Part shown: positions 571 to 18,689 of the stretch, piece by piece
Layout of the letters: every line of letters begins with the position of its first letter
Position numbering within the stretch: position 1 is the stretch's first letter
Assembly (NCBI RefSeq): GCF_001715295.1
Contig: NZ_MDKB01000002.1
Location: 1,572,313-1,636,312 of the forward strand
Direction of reading: 5' to 3'
Length of the DNA stretch: 64,000 nucleotides
Origin: Streptomyces griseus
GTDB lineage: Bacteria > Actinomycetota > Actinomycetes > Streptomycetales > Streptomycetaceae
The notes under the pieces: model-generated
Database searches by the model: none
What the model was told of the DNA's origin: nothing
What the model saw: the letters and a program-made list of their open reading frames with translations, nothing else
Translations under genes and position numbers: made by a program

Positions 571-1716
571 TCAGTCCGAAGTGGCTTCCACAGCACCGCC
601 GTTCTCGGCGTCCGACCCGCTGAGCCAGAAGTCCGACGCCTTCGCCACCTGGTCGTCGCGACCGGCGACAGGCCGGGCGTAGTGCCGAGTGGTAACGCTC
701 GCGTTCGAGTGCCCGAGCCGGTGCGCGGCGGTCATCACGCCATACCGGTCAGCGACCCACGTCCCGTGTGAGGCGCGGAGATCGTGCGGCGTGACGTCGG
801 TGAGCCCGGCAGCCGCCACGGCGGGATCGAAGTACGCCTTGCGCCACTGGTTGTAGCGCAGAGGCTTGCCGCCGGGCGTGACGAAGAGGAGAGCGTCCTC
901 CGCACCCGACAGCGTCTCCAGGTGCCGGCCGATCCGCGCCGCGAGTGACGGCCCGATCCGCAGGACCCGCTTCTGATGGGACTTGGGAGTGTCGAAGACC
1001 AGGGTGCCGTTCGCTTCGGCCAGGTTCTCATCTACGAGGACCAGGCCACCGGACACATCGATGTCCGCTCGCCGCAACGCGAACGCCTCCCCGACCCGCA
1101 GACCCGCGTAGGCGAGCAAGGAGATCAGCAGGTCATGCGGTTTCGTCGCGCTCCGCACAATCCATGAGGCTTCCAGCGGGGTGAGGATGTGCGGCTCGGT
1201 CTGCGGCATGCGGGGCAGCTTCACGCCCCTGCACGGGGTCTGCCCGATCATCTCGTTGTCGACGGCCGCCCGCATGATCTGCGAGAGCACCCGGTAGGCC
1301 TGCCTGATCCGCGAGGCGCTGAGACCACGGGTCTTCATCGCACCGACCCATTCGACGATGGTGATCGGCCGAAGGCTGGAAAGCTCACGATCACCGAGCG
1401 CCGGAACGATCAGCGAGTTGATCAGGGATCGGTACGAGGCCTGTGTCTTGTGCTTGAGCTGCGGGGAGACCGCGGTGAGCCATCGTGCCGACCAATCGCG
1501 GACGGTGGTCCGTCCCTCGGCGGGGTCGAGCCAGCGGCCCTCCTCCATCTCGATTCGCTTCCGTGCCAGCCAGCGATCGGCGTCCGTCGTTGTCGCGAAT
1601 GTCTGATCAGCGGCACGCAGCACGCCATCAGGCCCCGGATACCGAGCCTGGAACCGGCCGGACGGCAGCTTACGGATCCGCCCGAAGGCGCGTCGGGACT
1701 TACGCTTGGCGGCCAT
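571..1716 (-). CDS. int: Tyrosine site-specific integrase
   Basis: Integrates and excises the element at its chromosomal attachment site. The 381-residue protein has the usual layout: an N-terminal AP2-like arm-binding segment (1-65), a SAM-like core-binding domain (about 70-160) and a catalytic domain (about 175-355). Catalytic residues are visible: Arg207 in AGLRVGE, a Lys near 245, His311 and Arg314 in HDLR, His336 in LGHS and nucleophile Tyr346. The ATG overlaps the xis stop codon by one base (TGATG), so the two are translationally coupled. Length and motifs are intact and the gene looks functional. Placement after xis and rep matches pSAM2. Confidence 0.95.
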   Translation of the reverse strand: MAAKRKSRRAFGRIRKLPSGRFQARYPGPDGVLRAADQTFATTTDADRWLARKRIEMEEGRWLDPAEGRTTVRDWSARWLTAVSPQLKHKTQASYRSLINSLIVPALGDRELSSLRPITIVEWVGAMKTRGLSASRIRQAYRVLSQIMRAAVDNEMIGQTPCRGVKLPRMPQTEPHILTPLEASWIVRSATKPHDLLISLLAYAGLRVGEAFALRRADIDVSGGLVLVDENLAEANGTLVFDTPKSHQKRVLRIGPSLAARIGRHLETLSGAEDALLFVTPGGKPLRYNQWRKAYFDPAVAAAGLTDVTPHDLRASHGTWVADRYGVMTAAHRLGHSNASVTTRHYARPVAGRDDQVAKASDFWLSGSDAENGGAVEATSD

Positions 1717-1946
1717 CAGGCAGCCCTCCGGTACGAGTACGCCGAGGCGGGCCGCAGGACGATCGGCGCCACCGTGTGGGCACTGACGTACTCCTCCACG
1801 GCACTCTCGGGGATGCGGACGTGTCGGCCGACCTTGACGAACGTGATGCGGCGTTCCTCGATGAGCCGGCGAGGGAAGCGGAGACCGGTGCCGAGGCGTT
1901 CGGCGACCTGGTGCACGGTGAGCAGTCGGTCTGCCACGGTCACCAC
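1716..1946 (-). CDS. xis: Excisionase (Xis), MerR-like winged HTH
   Basis: A 76-residue DNA-binding protein. Residues 6-60 form the helix-turn-helix/excisionase fold: a TVHQVAERLG helix, then a basic segment and VGRHVRIPESAVEEYV, the wing and last helix typical of excisionases. It would bind near the attachment site and direct Int towards excision. It starts 6 bases inside the end of rep and its stop overlaps the int start, so rep, xis and int form one coupled unit as in pSAM2. Basic residues near 24-35 (LRFPRRLIEERR) fit DNA contact. Confidence 0.88.
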   Translation of the reverse strand: MVTVADRLLTVHQVAERLGTGLRFPRRLIEERRITFVKVGRHVRIPESAVEEYVSAHTVAPIVLRPASAYSYRRAA

Positions 1947-3355
1947 TCCCCCTCGTCGGTAGTGCGCTCCTTCAGTGCGTCGCGGGCGGTCTCGCGGTTG
2001 GTCTGGAGGTCACGGGCGATGGTGGCGGCGAGAGCGCCTTCGCCGGGGGTGTGCCCGTGGCCGACGTACTGCCAGTCCGTCAGGACGAGGACAGTGTCAG
2101 GTTCACGGTCGGCCAGGCCGAGGACGGTCGCTTCCTGTGAAGCGCGGTAGTCGGCGCGTTCCTGGCGGAGGGCACCGAGGGTGGTCGAGTACGTGCGGGA
2201 CTTGGACGAGAAGTGGCCGCGAAAGCCGAGCATGTGCGCCCAGGCCCAGAGGCGCCGGTCCGGATAGAGGCTGTCGAGCTCACGGCATACGGTGATGAGT
2301 CGGCGGGTGTGAACGGGAACGCGGTGGCGGTCAAGTTCGGCGAGTTCACCGATACGGCGGTCCAGGGTGCCGGTGTTCTCGGCGGCTTTGGTGGCGTACT
2401 TGGCCACGTACGAGGCGACAGCCTGTTCGGTGACATCTGAACCGTCGCCGAAAGCCTTGACCGGGCGGACGTCGAGCTGTCGGCCCCACCGGAAGGTCCG
2501 GGCCGGCTGTTCACCGGCAGCCGGGACGGAGACCGACGTGTACGAGTGCGCGGCTGCGGCGCGTATCGCGTCGGTGAGGAGATCAACGGTGGCCCAAGAG
2601 GGCGGCGGCGTACGAGGTCCCTCGGGGCCGTCGAGACGTACGACAGCGTGGAAGTGGAGGGCTCCGCGCTTCTGGAATTCGGCGACCTTGCCGAAGGAGA
2701 CGCGGAGATGGTCGCCCAGCTCACGGCGTGGGATGCCCGTGTGGATGGCGAGTTCGCGGCGGAGTCGGGTGGTGAAACGCTGCCAGAGCTCCCCGGCGTG
2801 GTTGTTGAAGAGCACGGCGCCCGCGTAGTCGTAGGTCTCCGGATCAAGGGCGGAGCCCAGGTCCCCGGAGTCCGAGGCGTGCGCGATGCCGCAACGGCAG
2901 GTGCCCCGGTCGGGTCGGTTGTGGACAGGGCCGAACGAGGGTGCGGTGAGGGTGGCGAAGACGCGCGGGTGGTCGCGTACGGCGGCGGTGATGTCGCGGC
3001 GGTCGTCTCCGGCGAGGCCAGCGCGGATCAGGTGGTAGGTGTCGCCCGCGTAGGTCCAGGCGCAGGAAGGACAGCGGGAGGCGCGGCGGTTGCCACAGGC
3101 GATACGAAGGCGTCCGCCCGGCTCGTACGCGGTCGAGTAGCGGTGCAGGGTCTCGCCGGTGGTCTTGTCCTTGTGGGTTACCCAGCCGCTCAGATGGACG
3201 GGGTCGGCACAGCCGCCGGTGCGGCGGATCTGGTCCTCCCAGCGGGTGTAGTCGGAGGCCGAGGCCACCCGGAGGACGTCCCCGAGGACGGTCGGGTCGA
3301 GCTGTGGGGCGGGCATGGACCGCTTCTCTTTCGAGGGTGAGGGCCGGTGGGCCAT
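1940..3355 (-). CDS. repSA: RepSA-type rolling-circle replication initiator
   Basis: Nicks the double-strand origin to start rolling-circle replication of the excised element. The 471-residue protein carries the hallmarks of the actinobacterial RepSA group: an N-terminal cysteine cluster (C87, C95, C98, then C153, C155), motif FATLTAPSFG near 133-142, the metal-binding HUH motif HFHAVV (H234, H236), and the catalytic tyrosine motif YVAKYATK (Tyr316/Tyr320). The ATG at 3355 is preceded by GGAAGGA. A second ATG at 3316 is possible but has a weaker ribosome site. Xis begins inside its 3' end. Confidence 0.92.
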   Translation of the reverse strand: MAHRPSPSKEKRSMPAPQLDPTVLGDVLRVASASDYTRWEDQIRRTGGCADPVHLSGWVTHKDKTTGETLHRYSTAYEPGGRLRIACGNRRASRCPSCAWTYAGDTYHLIRAGLAGDDRRDITAAVRDHPRVFATLTAPSFGPVHNRPDRGTCRCGIAHASDSGDLGSALDPETYDYAGAVLFNNHAGELWQRFTTRLRRELAIHTGIPRRELGDHLRVSFGKVAEFQKRGALHFHAVVRLDGPEGPRTPPPSWATVDLLTDAIRAAAAHSYTSVSVPAAGEQPARTFRWGRQLDVRPVKAFGDGSDVTEQAVASYVAKYATKAAENTGTLDRRIGELAELDRHRVPVHTRRLITVCRELDSLYPDRRLWAWAHMLGFRGHFSSKSRTYSTTLGALRQERADYRASQEATVLGLADREPDTVLVLTDWQYVGHGHTPGEGALAATIARDLQTNRETARDALKERTTDEGEW

Positions 3356-5284: not shown

Positions 5285-6637
5285 TCAGGCGGTGGCCGGA
5301 GAGGCCTTCGCTGATGGCACAAGGTCGGTGGCGGTGCCGGTGGTGGGCCGGAAAGGGGCCAGCTCTGGCAGGTCCGGTGCCCTGTCGGCGTACCGGTTGC
5401 AGAGGTTCACGGCCTGGCGGAGCGAGGTGTGCGGAGCGCGAATGCGGTGCCAACCGCCGGACGCGTCTCCCGCGATGGCGAGGCCTCGCAGTTCGGCGGG
5501 AATCTGGATGGCGGCGAGGACCGCGTCCGGGGAGATGTCGCCGAAGGCCATGTTGGCAGAGGTCTCGTCGTTGAGACGGTGGGCGGTGCGGCCGGTGAGT
5601 TGGGCGCGAAGCATGGTGATGCCCTTGCCGAGTTCGGAGCCGAAGCGCTGTCCGCAGATTTCGAGGTAGATACCGGCGGCGCGGCCGAGCTGCGCGAGAC
5701 GGACCAGGGCGGTGATGATGCGGTCCCGTCGCCTCTCCTCCTCCTTCGTTGCGTACAGGGCGAGTTCGGCCACCTCGTCGACCAGGACGACGACGGGGGT
5801 CGGGCGGAGCTCATCAGGCAGGTCCCAGATGTCGGCGGCGATCTCCGCGTCCGGCACATCGACGGTGATGCGCTGCTGGGTACGGATGAGGCGGTAGACG
5901 TCCGCCATCCGCGCCACGAGTGCATCGAGGAGTTCGGCGGCGGTGTCCGGGCTGTCGGCCAGCGCTGAGAACCGGCGGGCCAGCGGGAAGAGCTCGACCC
6001 CTTGCTTGCAGTCGATGCCGACGAGGGCGACGTCCAGAGGTGCAAGGCCGGCGACCAGGTTGCGTTGGTAGACCGACTTGCCGGACTCCGTGGCGCCGAG
6101 GGTGAGGGCGTGAGGTATCGCGCGGTAGTCGCGGTAGTGCACCGCCCCGTCCTCCCGAAGGGCGACCGGTACCCGCATCGCCCGGGTCTCCGTCTCAGCA
6201 GGCATCTGCACCCGCTTGAGCACGTCGTATCCGGTCATTCGCACCTCGACGACCCCAGACCGCACCTCACGCGAGGTCACGCCGAACATCGAGAACGAGT
6301 GCCGAAGCCGGTCCGAGGCCGCAGCGATGTCGAAGATGTCCTGGCCGGGACGGAGCTTGAGTCGGAGGACCAGGCCGGTGCGAGTCGGCCGCAGTCGCCG
6401 GATACGCGGTGGGCGGGGCTCAGGTATCGGCCGGTTGGTGGCCCGAGCCAGAGATAACCGCCATCGCGCCGGCGGAACGGTCAACCCGCACGCGTCCATG
6501 ACCGAGCGGTACCGGACCAAGACCCGCAGTGCGGCCAGGGTGGCCCCGAAGGCCAGCCAGTACCAGGCGGGCAGCCGCCACCGCAGGAGACCCGCAGCGG
6601 CGACGACCAGCACCAGAGCGACCGTGAAGGCGGTCAT
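5285..6637 (-). CDS. traSA: TraSA, FtsK/SpoIIIE-type conjugal DNA translocase
   Basis: The motor that moves double-stranded element DNA between hyphae. The 450-residue protein (ATG 6637; the longer frame to 6745 overlaps the upstream gene) has two membrane segments at 4-18 and 24-43. After these come a linker and an FtsK-like AAA+ ATPase with Walker A GATESGKS (181-188), Walker B VVVLVDEVAE (281-290) and GRAAGIYLEICGQR, where the family has the Q-R sensor. It starts two bases after the 119-codon gene, so they are coupled. Streptomyces transfer needs only this protein plus a cis-acting locus. Confidence 0.93.
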   Translation of the reverse strand: MTAFTVALVLVVAAAGLLRWRLPAWYWLAFGATLAALRVLVRYRSVMDACGLTVPPARWRLSLARATNRPIPEPRPPRIRRLRPTRTGLVLRLKLRPGQDIFDIAAASDRLRHSFSMFGVTSREVRSGVVEVRMTGYDVLKRVQMPAETETRAMRVPVALREDGAVHYRDYRAIPHALTLGATESGKSVYQRNLVAGLAPLDVALVGIDCKQGVELFPLARRFSALADSPDTAAELLDALVARMADVYRLIRTQQRITVDVPDAEIAADIWDLPDELRPTPVVVLVDEVAELALYATKEEERRRDRIITALVRLAQLGRAAGIYLEICGQRFGSELGKGITMLRAQLTGRTAHRLNDETSANMAFGDISPDAVLAAIQIPAELRGLAIAGDASGGWHRIRAPHTSLRQAVNLCNRYADRAPDLPELAPFRPTTGTATDLVPSAKASPATA

Positions 6638-6639
6638 GA

Positions 6640-6999
6640 TCAGGCCGCCTTCGACCCTGCGGTGGCGACGTCGGCGAGCGAGGTGACCGCGACCGCGCGG
6701 AACGCGATGCCATGCCGCCGCTGACCGTTGAAGTCGTTCTCCCACGGACGGGCGACCAGGCCGGTGAGCGCGACCGGCGTGCCCATGGACAGCTCACCGG
6801 TGATCCCGGGCTCCGGAACGGTGACGGACAGGATCTCCACCTCCTCGTTCGCCGCGAACATCACGTCCACGGTCATGAGCTGAGCACCGGTCTCCGTGTC
6901 GGTGGCGACCTCACCGGTGCGGCGGTCACGGACCTTGACCTGCGGAGTCTTGGCGACCATCACGACAGCGCTGGAGGTGTCGACGGGAATCTGACGCAC
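6640..6999 (-). CDS. Conserved AICE hypothetical upstream of tra, beta-rich
   Basis: A 119-residue protein starting GTG at 6999 with GAGGAG 8 bases upstream. It is rich in beta-strand patterns (VVMVAKTPQVKVRDRRTGE, VEILSVTVPEPGI, GTPVALTGLVARPWE, GIAFRAVAV), which resembles a small OB-fold, so single-strand DNA binding is a possible but unproven role. It is the first gene of the leftward tra-spd-rep-int transcript, and two KorSA-type operators lie directly upstream. Confidence 0.8.
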   Translation of the reverse strand: MRQIPVDTSSAVVMVAKTPQVKVRDRRTGEVATDTETGAQLMTVDVMFAANEEVEILSVTVPEPGITGELSMGTPVALTGLVARPWENDFNGQRRHGIAFRAVAVTSLADVATAGSKAA

Positions 7000-7088: not shown

Positions 7089-7138
7089 ACCCGCCGCGAA
7101 GAAGAACTCGCGACGGGTTGCGGGGAGTTGAGCGGCCG

Positions 7139-7918
7139 TCAGTCGTCGGCAGGGATCCGGTACTCGAAAACGAACTGGTCAGCGGCCATGAGCGTGTCGC
7201 ACACCTCGACCACCCGACCCGCGGTCGTACGGGCCTCCCGGATCAGGTGGACCACGGGCGCACCGGGGCTGAGCGCCAGTTCCGACGCCTCCGACTTCGA
7301 GGCCGGGCGCGCTTGCAGCGTCTCGACGAACTCCGCGAACTCATGCCCGTGATCTTCGAGTCGGGCATAGATGCCACCGCCCCCGGGGTTCTCGGCGAAC
7401 AGCTCGGGGATCTCCTTCACCACGTCCCAGGGCAGGTACGACGAGGCGGTTTCCACCGGGGTGCCGTTGCGGAAGTAGAGGCGCCGGCGGGCCAACACCT
7501 GCGTACCGGCGGGAACGCCGAGGCGCTCGGCGGCGTCCTCGGGCGCGTCCATGGGACCGATGTAGAGGACGCTGACTTTGGCAGTGGCGCCGGACTGTGC
7601 GGACTCCGCGAGGTAGGCGGCCTGGCCCCCTTGCCGGAGCGAGCGCCGGAACCGGTCGGAGGAGCGGTGCCGTACGGGGGGCCGGTTCTTCACGATCGAG
7701 CCCTTGCCGTGCCTGGTCTCGACGAGCCCACTCGCCCGTACCTCGACCATGGCCTTACGGATCGTCCCGCCGGAGACGCCGTAGCGGTCCACCAGCTCGG
7801 ATTCGCTCGGCACCATGTCGCCGGCTTTGAGAACCCCCGCCCGGATCTGCTGCACGAGGTCATCAGCGATCTGCACATATCGAGGACCGGAACCGGCCCC
7901 TCCCGCCGCAGTTCCCAT
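7139..7918 (-). CDS. korSA: KorSA-like GntR/HutC repressor of the element
   Basis: Transcriptional repressor that keeps transfer and excision genes silent. I chose ATG 7918 (259 residues) because GGAAGGA lies just ahead of it; the longer ATG at 7957 would put the start inside an operator. The N-terminal winged HTH (about 13-75) shows YVQIADDLVQQIRAGVL and GVSGGTIRKAMVEV, followed by the UTRA ligand-binding domain (about 90-255), typical of the HutC branch. KorSA of pSAM2 represses its own gene and the pra activator gene. Three matching 20-bp palindromes flank this gene, supporting the same circuit. Confidence 0.87.
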   Translation of the reverse strand: MGTAAGGAGSGPRYVQIADDLVQQIRAGVLKAGDMVPSESELVDRYGVSGGTIRKAMVEVRASGLVETRHGKGSIVKNRPPVRHRSSDRFRRSLRQGGQAAYLAESAQSGATAKVSVLYIGPMDAPEDAAERLGVPAGTQVLARRRLYFRNGTPVETASSYLPWDVVKEIPELFAENPGGGGIYARLEDHGHEFAEFVETLQARPASKSEASELALSPGAPVVHLIREARTTAGRVVEVCDTLMAADQFVFEYRIPADD

Positions 7919-7936
7919 AGTCCTTCCCTGCCTCCT

Positions 7937-7956
7937 ATGCTCCTCTACATGAGTCA
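7937..7956. promoter_or_regulatory. KorSA operator O3 in the divergent promoter
   Basis: ATGCTCCTCTACATGAGTCA matches O2 at 16 of 20 positions. It sits upstream of korSA and overlaps the start codon (7949) of the divergent NUDIX gene, so one bound dimer would cover both promoters. Confidence 0.65.
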
Positions 7957-8401
7957 ATCACAGGAAGCGGCACCCACTCCCCTGCACTCCGTGTCCGTCG
8001 CCGGAGTAGTGGTGCGCGAGGACGGCCGTCTCCTGGCGATCCGCCGAGCCGACAACGGCACCTGGGAGCTCCCCGGCGGCATCCTCGAACTCAACGAGAC
8101 ACCCGAGGCCGGCGTTGCACGCGAGGTCTGGGAAGAGACAGGCATCCACGTCGAGGTGGACCAGCTCACCGGCGTCTACAAGAACACGACCCGAGGCATC
8201 GTCGCCCTGGTCTTCCGCTGCAAGCCCTCCGGCGGCACCGAGCGCACATCAAGCGAGTCGACAGCCGTCTCCTGGCTCACACCCGACGAAGTCAGCGAGC
8301 GCATGGCCGAGGTCTACGCGGTCCGTCTCCTGGACGCCCTGGACGGCAACGGCCCTCACGTGCGGAGCCACGACGGCAAGCAGCTCATCACAGCGGGATA
8401 A
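7949..8401 (+). CDS. pif: NUDIX hydrolase, Pif-like transfer-immunity candidate
   Basis: A 150-residue protein with a complete NUDIX box at about 39-61: G-x5-E-x7-REVWEETGI. The ATG at 7949 is used because the family fold begins about 12 residues later; an in-frame ATG at 7937 is an alternative. No clear Shine-Dalgarno is seen, so it may be leaderless. In pSAM2 the immunity factor Pif, which blocks transfer into cells already carrying the element, contains a NUDIX motif and lies in the same regulatory area. Equating the two here is inference from motif plus location. Confidence 0.8.
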   Translation: MSQSQEAAPTPLHSVSVAGVVVREDGRLLAIRRADNGTWELPGGILELNETPEAGVAREVWEETGIHVEVDQLTGVYKNTTRGIVALVFRCKPSGGTERTSSESTAVSWLTPDEVSERMAEVYAVRLLDALDGNGPHVRSHDGKQLITAG

Positions 8402-8856: not shown

Positions 8857-10173
8857 GTGCGCCCTCTTGATCCACTGCCCCCAATCGAGCGCGGAGCTTC
8901 CCCGCTGGGCGGCCTTCCTGCCGCAAGGTCAGTGACCGCGCGCGATAGACGCTGGACAGTTGTTGACTTGTTCAGCGGCGCTGGGGGAATGAGCTGTGGG
9001 TTCCATGCTCATCCGGCATTTCGCATCGCAGCGGCGGTGGATGCCCAGAAAAGCAAGCCGAGCCGAAGCACGCTTGATTGCAATGATACTTACGAACGCA
9101 ATATTGGCATCAAGCCCCTCGCGTACGATCTTCAGGAAATAGGCGCTTCAGAGCTGCTTAAAGCAGTTCGCCGTGAGGGCAAATTTCGCAGCCCCACAAT
9201 TCTGCTTGCCTGCCCTCCCTGCACTGGATTCACTCGAACGCTGCCCAAAAATCATCTCGAGGACGACCCTCGCAATAGCCTAGTAGGTCGCGTAGCTGAG
9301 TTTGCGGCGATCCTGAAACCCAAAATTATAGTTCTCGAGAACGCTAGAGAGTTGATTCGAGGTTCTTTTAGGTCACATTCAGAGAATCTTACTTCGCAGC
9401 TCGAGAAGTTGGGCTACTCAGTCCACTCGCAAATTTACCGATTTGACCGGATGGGGCTGCCACAGCGCCGCGAGCGCGCCATCATTATTGCAGTGGCCCC
9501 CGATATGCCACTCCGCACCCTTGACGACCTTTGGGCGGGATGGGAGGTCGACCCAAAGGCGACCACGGTCCGGCATGCGATTTACGACCTACCCGAAGTC
9601 AGTGCCGGCGAAGCGCACCCGGCGGATCGATCGCATGTGAGCAGCAATGTGACAGATGTAGTTCTGCGCCGAATTCAGGCAATTCCGACAGACGGCGGAT
9701 CCTGGATTAGCCTCTTCGAAAAGCCTGAGACAGTCGAACTGGCTACGCCAGCGATGCGAAGGTCGGTGGAAGCTGCTCGCACGAACCACTTCAGCGATGT
9801 GTACGGTCGAATGGCATGGGATGCACCCGCACCAGTCGTTAAGCGCGAATGTAGTCACGTAGGAAACGGCCGCTACACACATCCGCGGCAGGATCGTCTT
9901 TGTACCGTGCGAGAGCTTGCGCTGCTACAAGGATTTCCGACCACCTACGATTTCGAAGGAACCAGCCGACAGAACGCTTACCGTCACGTAGGCGACGCCG
10001 TTCCCCCTCTGATTAGCCATCAACTAGCTTGGGTATGCAGTTGGATGTTGGGCGGAAAGAGGCCAAATCCAGACCAGTTCGTGCTGCCGGGTACGACACT
10101 TCACGCACGCGACATACTTGAATCCAAGGCGCCACACGTCAAACAGCTCAAGATTTCTACAGAACAAGCCTAG
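8857..10173 (+). CDS. DNA (cytosine-5) methyltransferase
   Basis: Methylates cytosine at C5 in a specific DNA site. The 438-residue protein shows the ordered motifs of the family: I VDLFSGAGGMSCGFH (36-50, AdoMet binding), IV ACPPCTGF with catalytic Cys122, VI VLENARE (Glu161; usual form ENV), VIII QRRERA (203-208), then the target-recognition region, and X YRHVGDAVPP. Start GTG 8857; homology begins near residue 30, so a later start is possible. No endonuclease gene is adjacent. It is followed 39 bases on by a GHKL ATPase gene. Base composition is clearly lower in GC than the flanks (codons AAT, ATT and AAA are frequent). Confidence 0.93.
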   Translation: MRPLDPLPPIERGASPLGGLPAARSVTARDRRWTVVDLFSGAGGMSCGFHAHPAFRIAAAVDAQKSKPSRSTLDCNDTYERNIGIKPLAYDLQEIGASELLKAVRREGKFRSPTILLACPPCTGFTRTLPKNHLEDDPRNSLVGRVAEFAAILKPKIIVLENARELIRGSFRSHSENLTSQLEKLGYSVHSQIYRFDRMGLPQRRERAIIIAVAPDMPLRTLDDLWAGWEVDPKATTVRHAIYDLPEVSAGEAHPADRSHVSSNVTDVVLRRIQAIPTDGGSWISLFEKPETVELATPAMRRSVEAARTNHFSDVYGRMAWDAPAPVVKRECSHVGNGRYTHPRQDRLCTVRELALLQGFPTTYDFEGTSRQNAYRHVGDAVPPLISHQLAWVCSWMLGGKRPNPDQFVLPGTTLHARDILESKAPHVKQLKISTEQA

Positions 10174-10212: not shown

Positions 10213-13212
10213 ATGGCTAATTTTAAAGCCCGTGCCCGTGCAGTCGACATGCTCGGGCGCCAACAGATCGCCGGCATCCCTACGGCAATCAATGAGCTCT
10301 TCAAGAACGCACACGACGCCTACGCTGAGAACGTCATCGGGGATTACTTCCGCGAGGAGAATGTTCTAGTAATTCGTGACGACGGTGTCGGCATGACCCA
10401 GCGTGATTTTCTTGAAAAATGGCTTGTTGTTGGAACAGAGAGCAAGGTCAACGCAGCCTCCTCTCCCGATGTTCCGGACGGGACGCGGCGCCCCATCCTT
10501 GGGGAGAAGGGCATCGGACGTCTGGCTGTGGCTGCGGTTGGCCCTCAGGTCATGGTTCTGACCCGCAGCACTAAGGATCGCTTCCTGACCTTGTCCCTCG
10601 TTAATTGGACCCTATTCACAGCACCTGGGATTGACCTTGAAGAGGTTGAAATCCCCGTCCGCCAGATCCCAGTCGGACGACTTCCCGACCAGAATGACGT
10701 CCGCCAACTCGTACAGGCAATTCGAGATAATCTCAGCCTGCTCGACGGAAGAATCGCCGAGAATATCTCTCAGACGGTCCATCATGAGATCTCATTGCTG
10801 GAGAATCTGGACCCTGTCGTTATTTCTCAGCGCATGTCTGGTCCGAGTCTTCGAGAGGCATCAGGGACCCAGTTCTGGATCACTCCGACTGACGAGATGC
10901 TCGCATTCGACGTAAGCGGAGATCCCAGAGGTGAGCAAGAAGCCTCACCTCTCTTTAGGACGCTGATCGGCTTCAGCGATACTATGGTCCCCGGCAATCC
11001 GCCGCCACCCATGGTCGCTCACTTCTATGATCATCGCTCGCGTGAAGTATCTCTGGACGTGATCGGCGACGGCGAGTTTTTCACGCCTCAGGATTTCCAA
11101 CTCGCAGATCACCAAATTTCGGGCCGCTTCGATGAGCATGGCCAATTTACGGGTCAAGTGTCCGTATACGGCAGAGAACCTGTTTCTCACGTAGTTCCGT
11201 GGCCAGGATCCCGAGGGAATAGAACTCTTTGTGGTGAGTTTGAGCTAAACCTCGCATATGTGCAAGGGAATAAGAGTCAATCCCGTTTGGGAGACGAAGA
11301 CTTCAACAGGCTGGCGCGTAAGCTCGCCCGCGTCGGAGGCCTGTACGTCTATCGAGACAGGGTCCGTATGCTTCCATACGGACGCAGTGATTTCGACTGG
11401 CTCGACATTGAACGCGAGCGCAGCAAAAGCGCTTCTGATTACTTCTGGTCCTACCGGCGCATGTTTGGCGTCGTTGGGATCAACAGTAGGGAAAACTTTC
11501 GCCTGCAGGAAAAGGCGGGACGCGAGGGTTTCCGAGCAAACGCGGCATATCGCGAGTTTAGAGATCTGCTTCAAAACTTCCTCGTACAAACAGCTCGAGA
11601 CTTCTTCCGTAATGACAGCTCGGACGATTCCTGGAGAATCACTCGCAGCGAACTGGAACGCGAATCGGAAGCACGGCAGAGACACGATAAGCAATCTCGA
11701 GTACGGAAGGCAGATTTTCGGCGTGAACTACAGCTCGCGGAACAGCGCCTGAATAGTGGAACACCAGAACAGGAGGTAGGGGTCCTTCTTCGAGAACTTG
11801 AGATAAACCTTGCTGATGCCACCTCCGACACAAACCAAGCGAGGGCATCTGAGAAGGTCGTGATGGCTGAGACGCGAGCGCTTCGAGCCATTATCGAGAT
11901 CCGGACCAGATATAGGGTTTCCAAGCCTAGAGGAGTGGCGCTACCAAAGAGTGTCGCCCAGGACTGGGACGACTATCAGCGAGAATTTGAGGTCATGGAA
12001 CACGGCCTACTAGATGAAATTAGAAAGGAAGTTGAGAGGCGGAGCTCCGCAGCAGCTGAGCGGTTGGGCTCTTCTCTTGATAGGCGCCGGCGTCTAGAGT
12101 CGGGAATCAAGGGTCGAATTTCCGACGCGCAAGGAACCCTGGGACGGACGCACCGACAGACTACTGAAGTCGTAGAGGTGATGCGCGAATCGCTAACGCG
12201 TCAAGCAAGCGACAGCCGGAAGGCCTTCGAAGACGATTGCCGACTTGTCCTTCTTGAACTTGCAGGCATGGACACCGACAGGCTTAACGATCAGGAAATC
12301 GCAGACATCCGTCGTCGTTTTGAGGACAGGATCGATGGAGCCCTGTCACGAGACCTTTCGAAACTGAACCAGCTCGTTGATCGTGTAAATATGTCGCTCG
12401 GAAGTGAAACTGATTCTTCCAATGGAGATTTTGTCGATGTAATCGGCTCCCTCGAGCAAGAAGTAGTCTCACTGCGAGACCGAGCCGATGAAGATCTAGA
12501 ACTTGCCCAACTCGGCTTGGCACTTCAGGTCATTAATCACGAATTTTCCTCTAGCATTCGAGCAGTTCGAAATAACCTACGCAGGTTGAAGTCCTGGGCA
12601 GACGCTAACAAGGGCCTGCGCCCCGTATATTCTGATCTTCGAGCCAGCTTCGAGCACTTGGATGCGTACCTTCGACTCTTCACGCCTCTAAACCGTCGCC
12701 TCTATAGGCGGGACACAATCATGAAGGGGGCCGAGGTTGAGCGATTTCTTGTCGACCTGTTTCAAGAGCGAATTTCGCAAGAAAGTATTCAACTCGAAGC
12801 AACCGCGGAATTTCGCTCTGCAAAAGTACGAGCTTACCCATCGACACTCTATCCAGTCTTCGTCAACTTGGTTGACAATGCCATTTACTGGCTAAGTACG
12901 CGCGGCAACCCGCGTGTACTTCGCCTAGACCATAAAGAAGGGGAATGGATCGTCGAGGACAATGGCCCTGGCGTTCCCACAGTAGACCAGGCTCGAATCT
13001 TTGAGCTCGGATTCTCTCGTAAGCCAAGTGGCCGCGGAATGGGTCTGCATATTAGTCGAGACGTTCTTAAGAAAGAGTCGTGGTCCTTGTCTCTATCGAC
13101 GTCGCCCCTCGGCGGAGCAAGATTCACTCTCGGCGAGCCTGATGATGACTCCGCATCTCCATCGAAGGAGCAGGATATTGCGGACACGCTAGCCCTGGAG
13201 TTCGATGACTAA
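10213..13212 (+). CDS. Dual GHKL ATPase: MutL/MORC-like N-domain plus kinase-like C-domain
   Basis: A 999-residue protein with two ATP-binding GHKL modules. N-terminal: INELFKNAHDAY (Glu28, Asn32), IRDDGVGM (54-61) and GEKGIGRLA (97-105), the pattern of Hsp90/MutL/MORC ATPases. A middle region of about 450-740 is rich in charged helices, likely coiled coil. C-terminal: an LQVINHEF segment with His776 resembling a DHp phospho-acceptor helix, then a histidine-kinase-type ATPase with N box VNLVDNAIYW (884-893), DNGPGVP (916-922) and RGMGLHIS (about 941-948). GHKL proteins beside DNA methylases occur in known restriction-like islands. Here I infer a sensor/ATPase signalling to the receiver protein downstream. 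Lower GC than the flanks. Confidence 0.85.
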   Translation: MANFKARARAVDMLGRQQIAGIPTAINELFKNAHDAYAENVIGDYFREENVLVIRDDGVGMTQRDFLEKWLVVGTESKVNAASSPDVPDGTRRPILGEKGIGRLAVAAVGPQVMVLTRSTKDRFLTLSLVNWTLFTAPGIDLEEVEIPVRQIPVGRLPDQNDVRQLVQAIRDNLSLLDGRIAENISQTVHHEISLLENLDPVVISQRMSGPSLREASGTQFWITPTDEMLAFDVSGDPRGEQEASPLFRTLIGFSDTMVPGNPPPPMVAHFYDHRSREVSLDVIGDGEFFTPQDFQLADHQISGRFDEHGQFTGQVSVYGREPVSHVVPWPGSRGNRTLCGEFELNLAYVQGNKSQSRLGDEDFNRLARKLARVGGLYVYRDRVRMLPYGRSDFDWLDIERERSKSASDYFWSYRRMFGVVGINSRENFRLQEKAGREGFRANAAYREFRDLLQNFLVQTARDFFRNDSSDDSWRITRSELERESEARQRHDKQSRVRKADFRRELQLAEQRLNSGTPEQEVGVLLRELEINLADATSDTNQARASEKVVMAETRALRAIIEIRTRYRVSKPRGVALPKSVAQDWDDYQREFEVMEHGLLDEIRKEVERRSSAAAERLGSSLDRRRRLESGIKGRISDAQGTLGRTHRQTTEVVEVMRESLTRQASDSRKAFEDDCRLVLLELAGMDTDRLNDQEIADIRRRFEDRIDGALSRDLSKLNQLVDRVNMSLGSETDSSNGDFVDVIGSLEQEVVSLRDRADEDLELAQLGLALQVINHEFSSSIRAVRNNLRRLKSWADANKGLRPVYSDLRASFEHLDAYLRLFTPLNRRLYRRDTIMKGAEVERFLVDLFQERISQESIQLEATAEFRSAKVRAYPSTLYPVFVNLVDNAIYWLSTRGNPRVLRLDHKEGEWIVEDNGPGVPTVDQARIFELGFSRKPSGRGMGLHISRDVLKKESWSLSLSTSPLGGARFTLGEPDDDSASPSKEQDIADTLALEFDD

Positions 13213-13289: not shown

Positions 13290-14990
13290 ATGGCAGCGAC
13301 TAAAATGTCGTCTTCTTTGCATCCGGTAGATTCAGCTCTGAATTACCAGGATCTTTGCATACGTGCGGCCCAGGAGTTTATCCACACGATTGTGGTTGTC
13401 GATGATCGCGCTACTTATGGGGAGCAGGAGAAGGTAACAGGGCTTATCGATCCTAACTCAGGCACCGCCTTTTCGGAGTCCTTCGATGACTCGACTGATT
13501 TTGAGCTTGGTGGGGCATCTCTCGATGTTTCGGTACTCACTGATGCCAGCGCAGATATCGGTCTGACCTGCGCGGTCCTTCGTCCGTCTCAGGATGAGCA
13601 GGACGATGGGACCCTCAATAGGCGGCTCGTAAAAGCAGCACGCCGCGCAGATGTTTTGGTCCTGGACTGGCAGCTAAACGACGCTGTCGACGGCCAAGCG
13701 GCCCTAAAGCTGCTGTCTGAGGTGGCAGCAGAGGACCAACTGGGTCAAGGTCGACTCAGATTGGTGTGCTTCTATACTAGTCATCCAGATTTGGAGAGCG
13801 TTTTTCAATCAATCGCAGGCCATCTCGACACCGCAGTTCTTTCTTCATCTGGACCAAACGATTCGTCGCGTTGGCTTGACTGCGGCTGCATGCGAGTTGT
13901 GGTGCTTGCAAAAGCTGGCGGCCTGACAATAGATTCAGTGCACTCAAATCTCCAGGTAGAAGAAAATGATTTGCCTCAGAAGTTGGTGGAGGAGTTTGCC
14001 GTACTCACTGCCGGCTTGGTGAGCAACGTTGCCGTGGCCTCACTTGCTGCCGTTAGGGCTGATGCACACAGGCTGCTCACCCGATTCGGGGTCAACCTCG
14101 ACACACCATTCCTGTCGCATCGATTCTACGAGGGCGGCCCTGAGAGTGAGGAGCTGCTTGTTCGTTTGGTCTCTGATGAGATTAAGACCCTTTTGGACAG
14201 CGCAGACGTTCGTCGCTGGTTGGAGCCCAAGGCCATCGCGCTTTGGGCTGAGCAGCATATAGCCGATCAAGTCGAGTTGACAGTCAAGAAGAAGACTGCC
14301 TTGATATCTAAAGATGAGCTAGTCCAGGCCATTTCCGGCGACAGGCACCGAGGTCAATTCGAGGTGACCAATCAGGCCATGGCTGGCCATAAATTTAACC
14401 TGGGCCGAGAGTACAAAGAAACCATTACTAGCGTACTCTCTCCCGATGGATCTGCCGAGAGCTTGGATTATGATTTCGCTCGCCTGACATGCCTAGCCCG
14501 AAATGATCCCTCTCCTTTCCCGGGAGATCGGACACCTATTTTGACAGAAGGCACCGTGGTGAGAGGGCGGTATGGTCAGGAAAAGATATACCTTCTTTGC
14601 TCCATGCCTCTGTGTGACACCGTCCGCGTAGGCAGCGAACGTTCATTTCCCTTCGTTCCTCTTAAATCTGTCGGCCCCGCAGACCGATACGACCTCGTTG
14701 CCTTGAGCCCGGAAGGGCAGCGCCTTTATCTCGCTTTCTCGACCGGAAAGCACTATGACACTGTCCGTCACACTTTCGCTGGCGATGAGAGTGGCGTCGT
14801 TCGCTCGAGAAAAAAGTCTGGTCAACTGGCGCAGTTCGTCTTCTACGATTCAAGCAGGAAGCCGTGGGTCTGGGTAGCAGAACTTCGGTTCCAACATGCC
14901 CATCGCAAACTGAATGACCTCGGTGCCGCTGCCAGTCGAGTAGGACTTGATGAGGCTTCCATACTGCGTTCCGCAAGCCAGAGGAAATAG
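13290..14990 (+). CDS. Receiver-domain protein with large unknown C-terminal region
   Basis: A 566-residue protein. Residues 33-212 read as a response-regulator receiver with an inserted loop: acidic pair DD (38-39), phosphoacceptor Asp126 in DVLVLDWQL, Thr163/Ser164 after a beta-strand (VCFYTS) and Lys208 in VVVLAKAGG. About 80 residues separate the DD pair from Asp126, far more than in ordinary receivers. The C-terminal 350 residues have no motif I recognise and no DNA-binding helix-turn-helix, so they may be an effector or a partner-binding region. GGAG precedes the ATG. It lies 77 bases after the GHKL gene, same strand, probably one operon. Confidence 0.8.
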   Translation: MAATKMSSSLHPVDSALNYQDLCIRAAQEFIHTIVVVDDRATYGEQEKVTGLIDPNSGTAFSESFDDSTDFELGGASLDVSVLTDASADIGLTCAVLRPSQDEQDDGTLNRRLVKAARRADVLVLDWQLNDAVDGQAALKLLSEVAAEDQLGQGRLRLVCFYTSHPDLESVFQSIAGHLDTAVLSSSGPNDSSRWLDCGCMRVVVLAKAGGLTIDSVHSNLQVEENDLPQKLVEEFAVLTAGLVSNVAVASLAAVRADAHRLLTRFGVNLDTPFLSHRFYEGGPESEELLVRLVSDEIKTLLDSADVRRWLEPKAIALWAEQHIADQVELTVKKKTALISKDELVQAISGDRHRGQFEVTNQAMAGHKFNLGREYKETITSVLSPDGSAESLDYDFARLTCLARNDPSPFPGDRTPILTEGTVVRGRYGQEKIYLLCSMPLCDTVRVGSERSFPFVPLKSVGPADRYDLVALSPEGQRLYLAFSTGKHYDTVRHTFAGDESGVVRSRKKSGQLAQFVFYDSSRKPWVWVAELRFQHAHRKLNDLGAAASRVGLDEASILRSASQRK

Positions 14991-15530: not shown

Positions 15531-15839
15531 TCAGTAGGCGGACTCACACGGATCGCTCGTTGCCCGAAGGTGGCCGCGGCTCGTTGCGACGCGGTAGACG
15601 TCCCGTAGAGCCCCGGTCAGCTCTTTGACCAGGCCCCGCATGTCGTCGAGTGACGTCCCCTGGTTGTCGAGAGCCCCTGAGGCTTCTTCCAACAGTTCCT
15701 TCGCCGTGCCGAGTTGGATCGCTTCGATGCCGTCCGCGAGGCGGGACATGTAGCCGTCCGGGTCGTCAGTGCTCAGGTAGCAGGGCTTGTCCCCCGGGCC
15801 TGACCACGGGAGGAGCCGAAGTTCGTTCGGTGTTGTCAT
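15531..15839 (-). CDS. Hypothetical protein, end of small-gene operon
   Basis: A 102-residue acidic soluble protein with a long predicted helix (about 38-85: GIEAIQLGTAKELLEEASG...), no membrane segment and no motif I know. Its ATG overlaps the end of the GntR gene by 4 bases (ATGA), so it is translationally coupled. Such short partners beside GntR regulators are frequent in Streptomyces mobile elements. Function unknown. Confidence 0.75.
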   Translation of the reverse strand: MTTPNELRLLPWSGPGDKPCYLSTDDPDGYMSRLADGIEAIQLGTAKELLEEASGALDNQGTSLDDMRGLVKELTGALRDVYRVATSRGHLRATSDPCESAY

Positions 15840-16579
15840 CCTTGGGTTGGCCTCTCGTTGAGCAGATGGTGGGCGGTGAAGACGGCGTCGACTCGGTCTC
15901 CCGGAAAGGCCAGGAGCGCGGCTTCAACGACGCGGCCGTTGGTGTCGGTGGCAATGCGCGTGATCGCGAGAACCGCCATGTTGTTTCCGATGCGGAGGGC
16001 CGACGCTTCGTCTGGGGTGGGAGAGCGGGCAGAGACCGTCTCTCGGATGGTGGCTGGCGACGGGCCGAGGACGGCGAATCGCGTGGCTGCCTCCTGGCAC
16101 GCGGAGTCGTCGTCGAGGACTCCGGCCGGGGCCAGGTCGCGCGGGATGTAGATGCGGGCCAGGCCGTGCGGCGAGCCTTGTTCGAGGCTGAGACAGGTGT
16201 ACTCCGCGAGGGGGCTGCCCGTTGGCACCTTCAGCAACGTCGTCAGGTGCACGGAGGCCGGAACCGTGGTGCTGCGAACCGTGATGCGCAACGTTGGCTC
16301 AGCGGCGGTCCAGGGGTCCAGCGTGCCCCAGCCTCCGACGTACATGATCTTGCGGCGAGGGTGACGTACGTAGTTGCCCTTGCCGTGAATCTTCTCGACG
16401 AGTCCTTCGCCCTGGAGCAAGGCGAGAGCGCGTCGCGGGGTCACCGTGCTGACCCTGTACCGGGCGGCCAGGCCAGCTTCGGACGGGAGGCGTTCGCCAG
16501 GCTTGATGCTGCCCGTTGCGATCTGGTGGCGTAGGTCGTCGGCGATGTCGTGATGGCGTCGGGGCACGGAGCGAGTCAC
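15836..16579 (-). CDS. GntR/HutC-family transcriptional regulator
   Basis: A 247-residue regulator: N-terminal winged HTH (about 8-72; HDIADDLRHQIATGSIKPGERLPSE and YRVSTVTPRRALALLQGEGLV fragments) followed by a UTRA domain (about 85-240). It belongs to the same subfamily as KorSA but is clearly a different protein. It overlaps the genes on both sides by 4 bases each, so it is embedded within an operon of small unknown genes, not divergent from its target. Confidence 0.88.
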   Translation of the reverse strand: MTRSVPRRHHDIADDLRHQIATGSIKPGERLPSEAGLAARYRVSTVTPRRALALLQGEGLVEKIHGKGNYVRHPRRKIMYVGGWGTLDPWTAAEPTLRITVRSTTVPASVHLTTLLKVPTGSPLAEYTCLSLEQGSPHGLARIYIPRDLAPAGVLDDDSACQEAATRFAVLGPSPATIRETVSARSPTPDEASALRIGNNMAVLAITRIATDTNGRVVEAALLAFPGDRVDAVFTAHHLLNERPTQG

Positions 16580-17683: not shown

Positions 17684-18439
17684 ATGTCTGAGCAACCGCC
17701 GTACCTCCGCATCGCCGACGAACTCCGGCAACGCATCGCGGAGCACGTCTGGGAACCGGGCGACCGCCTCCCATCCCGCGCCCAGATCGGCCAGGAGTGC
17801 GGCGTGGGCGAGAACGTGGTGCGCAGAGCCCAGGAGTTGTTGATCTCCCAAGGCGTGCTGGAAGGCCGGGCCGGATCGGGGACCTACGTCGCCGAGCCCC
17901 GGGAGCGCGTGAGAGTCGTCCGGTCGTCGGCGCGTGAGCAGCCCAGCGGATCCCCGTTCCGCCAGGACATGAAGGCCCTTCGCCTACAGAGCGACTGGGA
18001 GAGCCGGACCGACGCGAAGGTGCCGGCCCCGGCGGAGATCGCGACGCGGCTCGGGATCGCCGAAGGCGAGCCGTGCGTGCGGACGACGTACGAGTTCCTT
18101 GCGGACGGGAAGCCGGTTCAGCTGTCGACGAGTTGGGAGCCGTACGCCGTCACTGGCGGAACCCTCGTCGTTCTTCCCGAGGGAGGGCCCCACGCGGGGG
18201 CCGGGGTCGTGAACCGCATGGCCGAGATCGGAGTCACCATCAGCCACGCGGTGGAGCAGCCCGAACCCAGGCACGCGACCGCCGAGGAAGCATCGCTACT
18301 CGGCATCCAGAAAGCCGCACTCGTGACGCACATCCGGCGGACGTACTACAGCGACGACGGTCGTCCCGTGGAGACAGCGGACATCGTGGTGCCCGCAGCG
18401 CACTGCGAGATCGTCTACGAGATCCCCATCAACCGCTGA
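17684..18439 (+). CDS. GntR/HutC-family regulator, divergent
   Basis: A 251-residue regulator. N-terminal winged HTH at about 6-72 (YLRIADELRQRI, VGENVVRRAQELLISQGVLEG), then a UTRA-type ligand domain (about 95-245) including ERVRVVRS and THIRRTYYSDDGRPVETADIVVPA. ATG 17684. It reads divergently from the small-gene operon, and paired palindromes end 9 bases before its start codon, which fits autorepression plus control of the operon. It is the last gene before tRNA-Ser and the third GntR regulator in the presumed element. Confidence 0.9.
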   Translation: MSEQPPYLRIADELRQRIAEHVWEPGDRLPSRAQIGQECGVGENVVRRAQELLISQGVLEGRAGSGTYVAEPRERVRVVRSSAREQPSGSPFRQDMKALRLQSDWESRTDAKVPAPAEIATRLGIAEGEPCVRTTYEFLADGKPVQLSTSWEPYAVTGGTLVVLPEGGPHAGAGVVNRMAEIGVTISHAVEQPEPRHATAEEASLLGIQKAALVTHIRRTYYSDDGRPVETADIVVPAAHCEIVYEIPINR

Positions 18440-18595: not shown

Positions 18596-18602
18596 TCGCC
18601 TG

Positions 18603-18689
18603 CGGTGGGTGTGGGATTTGAACCCACGGTGACATCGCTGCCACGACGGTTTTCAAGACCGTTCCCTTAGGCCGCTCGGGCAACCCACC
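18603..18689 (-). tRNA. serT: tRNA-Ser(UGA)
   Basis: An 87-nt class II tRNA: acceptor stem GGTGGGT (18689-18683) with ACCCACC (18610-18604), anticodon TGA (18655-18653), a long variable arm, a T-arm with GTTCAAATC, discriminator G; CCA is not encoded. Its 3' end faces the mobile element, the usual geometry for an AICE attachment site. Confidence 0.97.

Follow-up and report, generated by a model that had tools for sequence, protein, structure and literature searches.

What could a single bacterial polypeptide do with a clamp-type ATPase at one end and a histidine-kinase-type ATPase at the other? The question is raised by a locus in a 64,000-nucleotide stretch of Streptomyces griseus DNA (the window), where an initial annotation had read both enzymes from one open reading frame. 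This reading frame occupies exactly positions 10213–13212 (forward strand, as are all features below unless marked otherwise), opens with an ATG preceded by GGAGG just on its 5' side, and encodes a HEF_HK protein of 999 residues, here called HK-like. The protein was characterised through its Pfam domains, an alignment of 71 homologues, which align with it from residue 1 onward, and an AlphaFold model.

Two ATPases of different GHKL branches in one chain

Three Pfam domains were identified in the HK-like protein: HATPase_c_3 (PF13589, E 6e-14; residues 24–123, positions 10282–10581), the DHp-like HEF_HK domain (PF19191, E 1.5e-28; residues 766–832, positions 12508–12708) and HATPase_c (PF02518, E 8e-17; residues 877–973, positions 12841–13131). 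All three score above their curated cut-offs (99.5 bits for HEF_HK, 52.6 for HATPase_c_3 and 62.2 for HATPase_c) and follow the order of "group 1" of this family, so that the domain set is not the product of chance. The motif ranges that had been given for the two ATPases, residues 26–105 and 884–948, fall within the Pfam domain borders. The idea of a concealed nuclease domain between the two ATPases was rejected, as Pfam gave no match there.

The AlphaFold model (mean pLDDT 80, pTM 0.62) is composed of a GHKL and S5-like head (about residues 1–425), a coiled coil, a pair of DHp-like helices and a CA domain. Within the head, the S5-like transducer region (residues about 215–425, positions 10855–11487) was defined by alignment of the model to the MORC3 ATPase-CW structure. 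The N-terminal half of the model matched MORC3 (5ix2) over residues 4–475 with a Z score of 18.8 (331 residues, 4.2 Å) and SMCHD1 with a Z score of 17.4; MORC2 and Hsp90 were also matched. A profile built from the 71 homologues matched HtpG and MutL weakly in the N-terminal region. As judged by fold comparison of the predicted structure, the head is a MORC/MutL-type GHKL-S5 ATPase, that is, a GHKL domain fused to an S5-like domain.

The head is followed by the long helical middle of the initial annotation, modeled as a coiled coil of about residues 444–760 (positions 11542–12492). The confidence of the model is modest in this segment, with pLDDT ranging from 44 to 94 in ten-residue blocks and reaching its minimum at residues 731–740, and the segment is also the least conserved part of the protein (26% mean identity).

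Over residues 755–984, the homologue profile matched histidine kinases (ThkA, E 9e-16). The C-terminal half of the model aligned with HK853 (4jav) with a Z score of 17.8 (225 residues, 4.9 Å), the DHp part being of modest pLDDT, and the CA domain aligned with that of ThkA with a Z score of 19.1 (147 residues, 2.3 Å); the YF1 kinase was also matched. The DHp-like helix with His776 of the initial annotation lies within this C-terminal match to DHp-CA histidine kinases. The proposal of two ATPases of different GHKL branches and a DHp domain in one chain is thus supported by Pfam and related family models, by the homologue profile and by comparison of folds.

Conservation of the catalytic residues

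The two sets of GHKL motifs proved to be complete. In the N-terminal ATPase, residues E28, N32, D56, G58, G60, G97, K99, G100 and G102 are invariant in the 71 homologues; Glu28 is the catalytic glutamate and the glycines around K99 belong to the lid (residues 97–103). In the C-terminal ATPase, the N, G1, F and G2 boxes of a histidine kinase are all found in the window protein, and N885, N889, G918, G940, G942 and G944 are invariant. The exception among the key residues is position 916 of the kinase G1 box, which is aspartate in 42 and asparagine in 29 of the homologues; the remaining nucleotide-binding residues are kept.

The candidate phospho-acceptor His776 (codon CAC, positions 12538–12540) was conserved in 71 of 71 homologues; a loss of this residue among homologues, which the initial annotation had named as evidence against its reading, was not observed. 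The initial annotation had expressed doubt about kinase activity because the H-E-F context lacks some features of standard DHp boxes, and conservation answers this doubt. The acidic residue after the histidine, on which kinase activity depends, is present throughout (residue 777 is Glu in 70 homologues and Asp in one). For phosphatase activity, HisKA kinases use a Thr or Asn four residues after the histidine; kinase activity does not require it. This feature is not kept here: the corresponding residue 780 is mostly Ser, Ala or Gly, and Asn in 4 of the 71. With the phosphatase position lost, the HK-like protein is probably not a kinase-phosphatase and would switch in one direction only. An invariant histidine alone is no proof of autophosphorylation.

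Methyltransferase and receiver partners

The HK-like gene is the second of three genes with short gaps between them on a common strand. The two neighbours, which were absent from the initial annotation, make sense of the HK-like protein. The upstream gene (positions 8857–10173) encodes a C5 cytosine DNA methyltransferase of 438 residues (PF00145, E 1e-44; dcm model TIGR00675 above cut-off), for which the annotated GTG start may lie too far upstream. The downstream gene (positions 13290–14990) encodes a Response_reg_2 protein of 566 residues, here called RR-like (PF19192, E 2.7e-32; 112.8 bits against a cut-off of 27), for which the model has a pLDDT of 87.8 and a pTM of 0.86.

Residues 30–240 of the RR-like model adopt the receiver fold, with Z scores of up to 11.7 against known receivers (KdpE: Z 11.6, 119 residues, 2.6 Å). 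The receiver domain itself was assigned to residues 30–208 (positions 13377–13913). Across 72 aligned receivers, its active site is conserved at D38 (72), D39 (66), D126 (72), T/S163 (71) and K208 (72), where Asp126 (codon at positions 13665–13667) is the predicted phospho-acceptor.

Beyond the receiver, the RR-like model shows a helical plus beta domain, and Pfam gave no match worth naming for the C-terminal part and no helix-turn-helix or other DNA-binding domain. Residues 404–566 (positions 14499–14987) were delimited as a putative output domain with invariant G421, C437 and C442. The C-terminal consensus reads LGTI...YxLCxQPRCDSVRL and contains a G...CxxxxCD motif, possibly marking a new output domain outside the known families.

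The carrier element

Gene content and att sites identify the carrier of the trio as a pSAM2-type integrative and conjugative element of actinomycetes, about 18.9 kb long. The element carries an integrase (positions 571–1716, reverse strand; PF00589, E 8e-16), a RepSA replication initiator of the pSAM2 type (1940–3355, reverse strand; PF20199, E 1e-143), an FtsK/TraB-type translocase (5285–6745, reverse strand; PF01580, E 3.5e-43), a NUDIX protein (7118–8401; PF00293, E 3e-19) and two GntR/UTRA regulators identified by Pfam (15836–16579, reverse strand, and 17684–18439). Its right-hand att site (18599–18630) lies at the 3' end of a tRNA-Ser(TGA) gene (18602–18689, reverse strand) and is one copy of an exact 32-bp direct repeat. 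No such repeat was found within the window alone; the second copy lies 236 bases ahead of the window's first position (C9:1572077), and the length of the element follows from these two copies.

The trio is the only part of the element with low GC content (0.52–0.60, compared with 0.66–0.75 around it). Among 100 related genomes, HEF_HK was found in the window's own genome only. The nearest relative, from Peterkaempfera, is 75% identical and has parts of the element backbone in common. This rarity, the low GC content and the integrative-element site fit a mobile accessory system.

Spread of the trio

We collected 80 homologous loci, which span many phyla and include three from archaeal assemblies; as these are the best full-length matches, little can be concluded from them on truncated variants. 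The distribution of the trio extends from actinobacteria to methanogens. The receiver gene lies directly downstream of the kinase gene in each of the 74 loci with complete flanks. The methyltransferase gene is upstream in 67 of these 74, further upstream in one more and on the opposite side in four. The archaeal trios (L012, L014 and L065) come from Methanoperedens, Methanosarcinaceae and Methanosarcina assemblies, where contamination of the contigs is possible. A search of phage records gave no match to the kinase, plasmids gave two distant matches, and the receiver had no useful fold match in BFVD.

A conserved fourth gene was considered as a candidate effector and rejected. The genes downstream differ from locus to locus (AAA/ABC-type ATPases, HNH, DUF1016, EcoRII-N, NOV_C) and Vsr alone recurs, in 44 loci; the window has none.

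Pairwise distances between loci correlate with r 0.81 for kinase and receiver, 0.79 for the N- and C-terminal halves of the kinase and 0.64 for kinase and methyltransferase, of which only the ranking is informative, as host relatedness feeds into all three values. By this measure, the receiver has diverged in step with the kinase as closely as the two kinase halves have with each other.

Relation to characterised families

The HEF_HK (PF19191) and Response_reg_2 (PF19192) families were defined by Bellieny-Rabelo et al. 2021 in a study that covered bacteria only (PMC8011034). There, the combination of HATPase_c_3, HEF_HK and HATPase_c ("group 1") accounts for 174 of 222 proteins, 91.6% of HEF_HK proteins are linked to a receiver gene, and C5 methyltransferase genes are often found upstream and Vsr genes downstream (PMC8011034). 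The family has been proposed to descend from paraMORC ATPases (PMC8011034; Iyer et al. 2008, PMC2292703). The window locus shares with group 1 the three domains and their order, the adjoining receiver gene and the upstream C5 methyltransferase; it differs from group 1 in its location on an actinomycete integrative element and in having no Vsr gene, neither being a difference in kind (PMC8011034). The window protein is thus a further member of a family and gene set predicted in 2021, and the combination is not new. Added here are the archaeal members, the invariance of His776 and of the receiver aspartate in a divergent subfamily as well, the loss of the H+4 residue and the co-divergence of kinase and receiver. 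A search of the open-access literature found no experiment on the HEF_HK family (anti-phage, ATPase, DNA-binding or phosphotransfer); in that literature, the two domains are named by one further paper, and the 2021 title is cited by two later ones.

Similar systems resemble the trio in part. The paraMORC and other prokaryotic MORC ATPases share the N-terminal GHKL and S5 domains and the restriction-modification neighbourhood with a C5 methylase and often Vsr, whereas paraMORC1–5 as described have no DHp-CA kinase (PMC2292703). In VcSduA, a Shedu protein with a paraMORC3-type GHKL N-terminus, the ATPase is likewise thought to control the output in anti-phage defence; however, this output is a fused nuclease, in contrast to the kinase and separate receiver of the window (PMC12137116). 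Detocs, compared by its description, is a three-gene defence system described as two-component, but the effector best described for it is a PNP domain that cleaves ATP, and its description includes neither a methyltransferase nor a MORC-type module (PMC11249213).

Proposed function

We consider it somewhat probable that the trio is a mobile, methylation-linked (restriction-like) defence system with a built-in two-component relay, in which an ATP clamp gates phosphotransfer. In such a system, the methyltransferase, to judge by its family, would mark host DNA as self. In an HK-like dimer, the MORC/MutL-type heads would form an ATP clamp that closes on DNA or on a partner bound to it, with foreign or unmarked DNA as the presumed trigger. 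The coiled coil may then relay this closure to the DHp-CA kinase, whose invariant residues are consistent with phosphorylation of His776. From there the phosphoryl group could pass to Asp126 of the RR-like protein, a step suggested by the partner genes, the receiver fold and its active site, and phosphorylation might free the putative C-terminal output domain to act on either the invader or the cell. The initial annotation had already suggested that DNA clamping could be coupled to phosphotransfer, and we infer the same.

This defence reading is supported by the domains, their folds and strict conservation, by the operon, its co-divergence, rarity and low GC content and by the mobile site; precedents are the GHKL-controlled nuclease VcSduA (PMC12137116) and the two-component defence of Detocs (PMC11249213). 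Against it count the absence of a PADLOC model for the kinase or receiver, the replacement of the G1-box Asp by Asn in 29 of 71 homologues, an output domain that has no confident match and the finding that, beside the trio, Vsr is the only nuclease to recur among the homologous loci. A more specific version is possible, if doubtful: the MORC-type clamp would read DNA directly and drive the His-Asp relay, the receiver would carry a new effector domain (CxxxxCD), and phosphotransfer, rather than a site-reading nuclease, would turn on restriction of unmethylated DNA.

The 2021 study speculated on a regulatory role, in which the HK-like/RR-like pair is a two-component system that senses nucleotides or the state of DNA and tunes the expression or activity of the methyltransferase and of restriction-modification genes at other sites, without itself being an effector system (PMC8011034). 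Linkage to such genes well above chance across 628 genomes (PMC8011034), a trio that has no conserved nuclease and the usual role of receiver proteins in transcription control all speak for this. We nevertheless regard it as rather unlikely, because Pfam finds no HTH or DNA-binding domain in the RR-like C-terminus, modeled as helical plus beta, because the pair is fixed with the methyltransferase across phyla and has no constant R gene, and because a MORC-type clamp would be an odd sensor for gene regulation. It is improbable that the trio is instead a type II-like restriction-modification system with the HK-like protein as a BbrUII/HgiDII-like restriction subunit whose activity is all that the relay controls. 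The NCBIfam model NF050001 (BbrUII/HgiDII restriction enzyme) does match residues 10–123 (E 4.8e-17), as does the PADLOC REase_II model (E 1.5e-4) the protein; yet the NF050001 match covers the GHKL domain only, at 61.7 bits against a cut-off of 550, and searches of the middle and C-terminal parts of the HK-like protein revealed no nuclease domain.

A further proposal, to which we give little credence, concerns the output: the phosphorylated RR-like protein would attack RNA or the cell through a MazF-like barrel, causing abortive infection. It derives from Foldseek, which returned several MazF toxins for the RR-like model with probabilities of 0.97–0.99, albeit with E values of 0.02–0.05 and the aligned range not shown. 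Comparison by hhalign with 29 PemK/MazF proteins from related genomes gave a probability of 0.2%, Pfam found no PemK match, a sequence search of the PDB offered no support, VIA-align listed receiver folds only, and the MazF catalytic residues are not among the invariant RR-like positions. On these grounds a MazF-like effector was rejected.

If the relay of the defence reading is real, two-component phosphotransfer would trigger DNA-directed immunity, and its sensor would be a bacterial protein related to the MORC/SMCHD1 silencing ATPases of eukaryotes. The value of the finding lies in this mechanistic proposal and in the residues that conservation names for mutation: E28, N32, H776 and N889 in the kinase and D126, C437 and C442 in the RR-like protein. 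As a small trio on a mobile element, the system is easily transferred to a laboratory strain, where it can be assayed with phage or by plasmid transformation.

Divergent trios in another class

Among 369 genomes of another class, we identified two divergent trios, L129 (495–6445) and L130 (2529–8918), and no degenerate pair in which kinase and receiver were separated. Their kinases score about 500 bits, compared with about 1300 in the main set. They keep His776, E777, both Asn residues, D38, D39, D126, T163 and the CxxxxCD motif, and neighbouring conserved residues differ. Their receivers score weakly against PF19192, and the DHp motif reads G-H-E-I instead of N-H-E-F. In L130, the Vsr gene is followed by a gene for a NOV_C (NO VEIN C-terminal) protein (8897–9748); a scan of 47 downstream genes from the main set gave one further NOV_C match.
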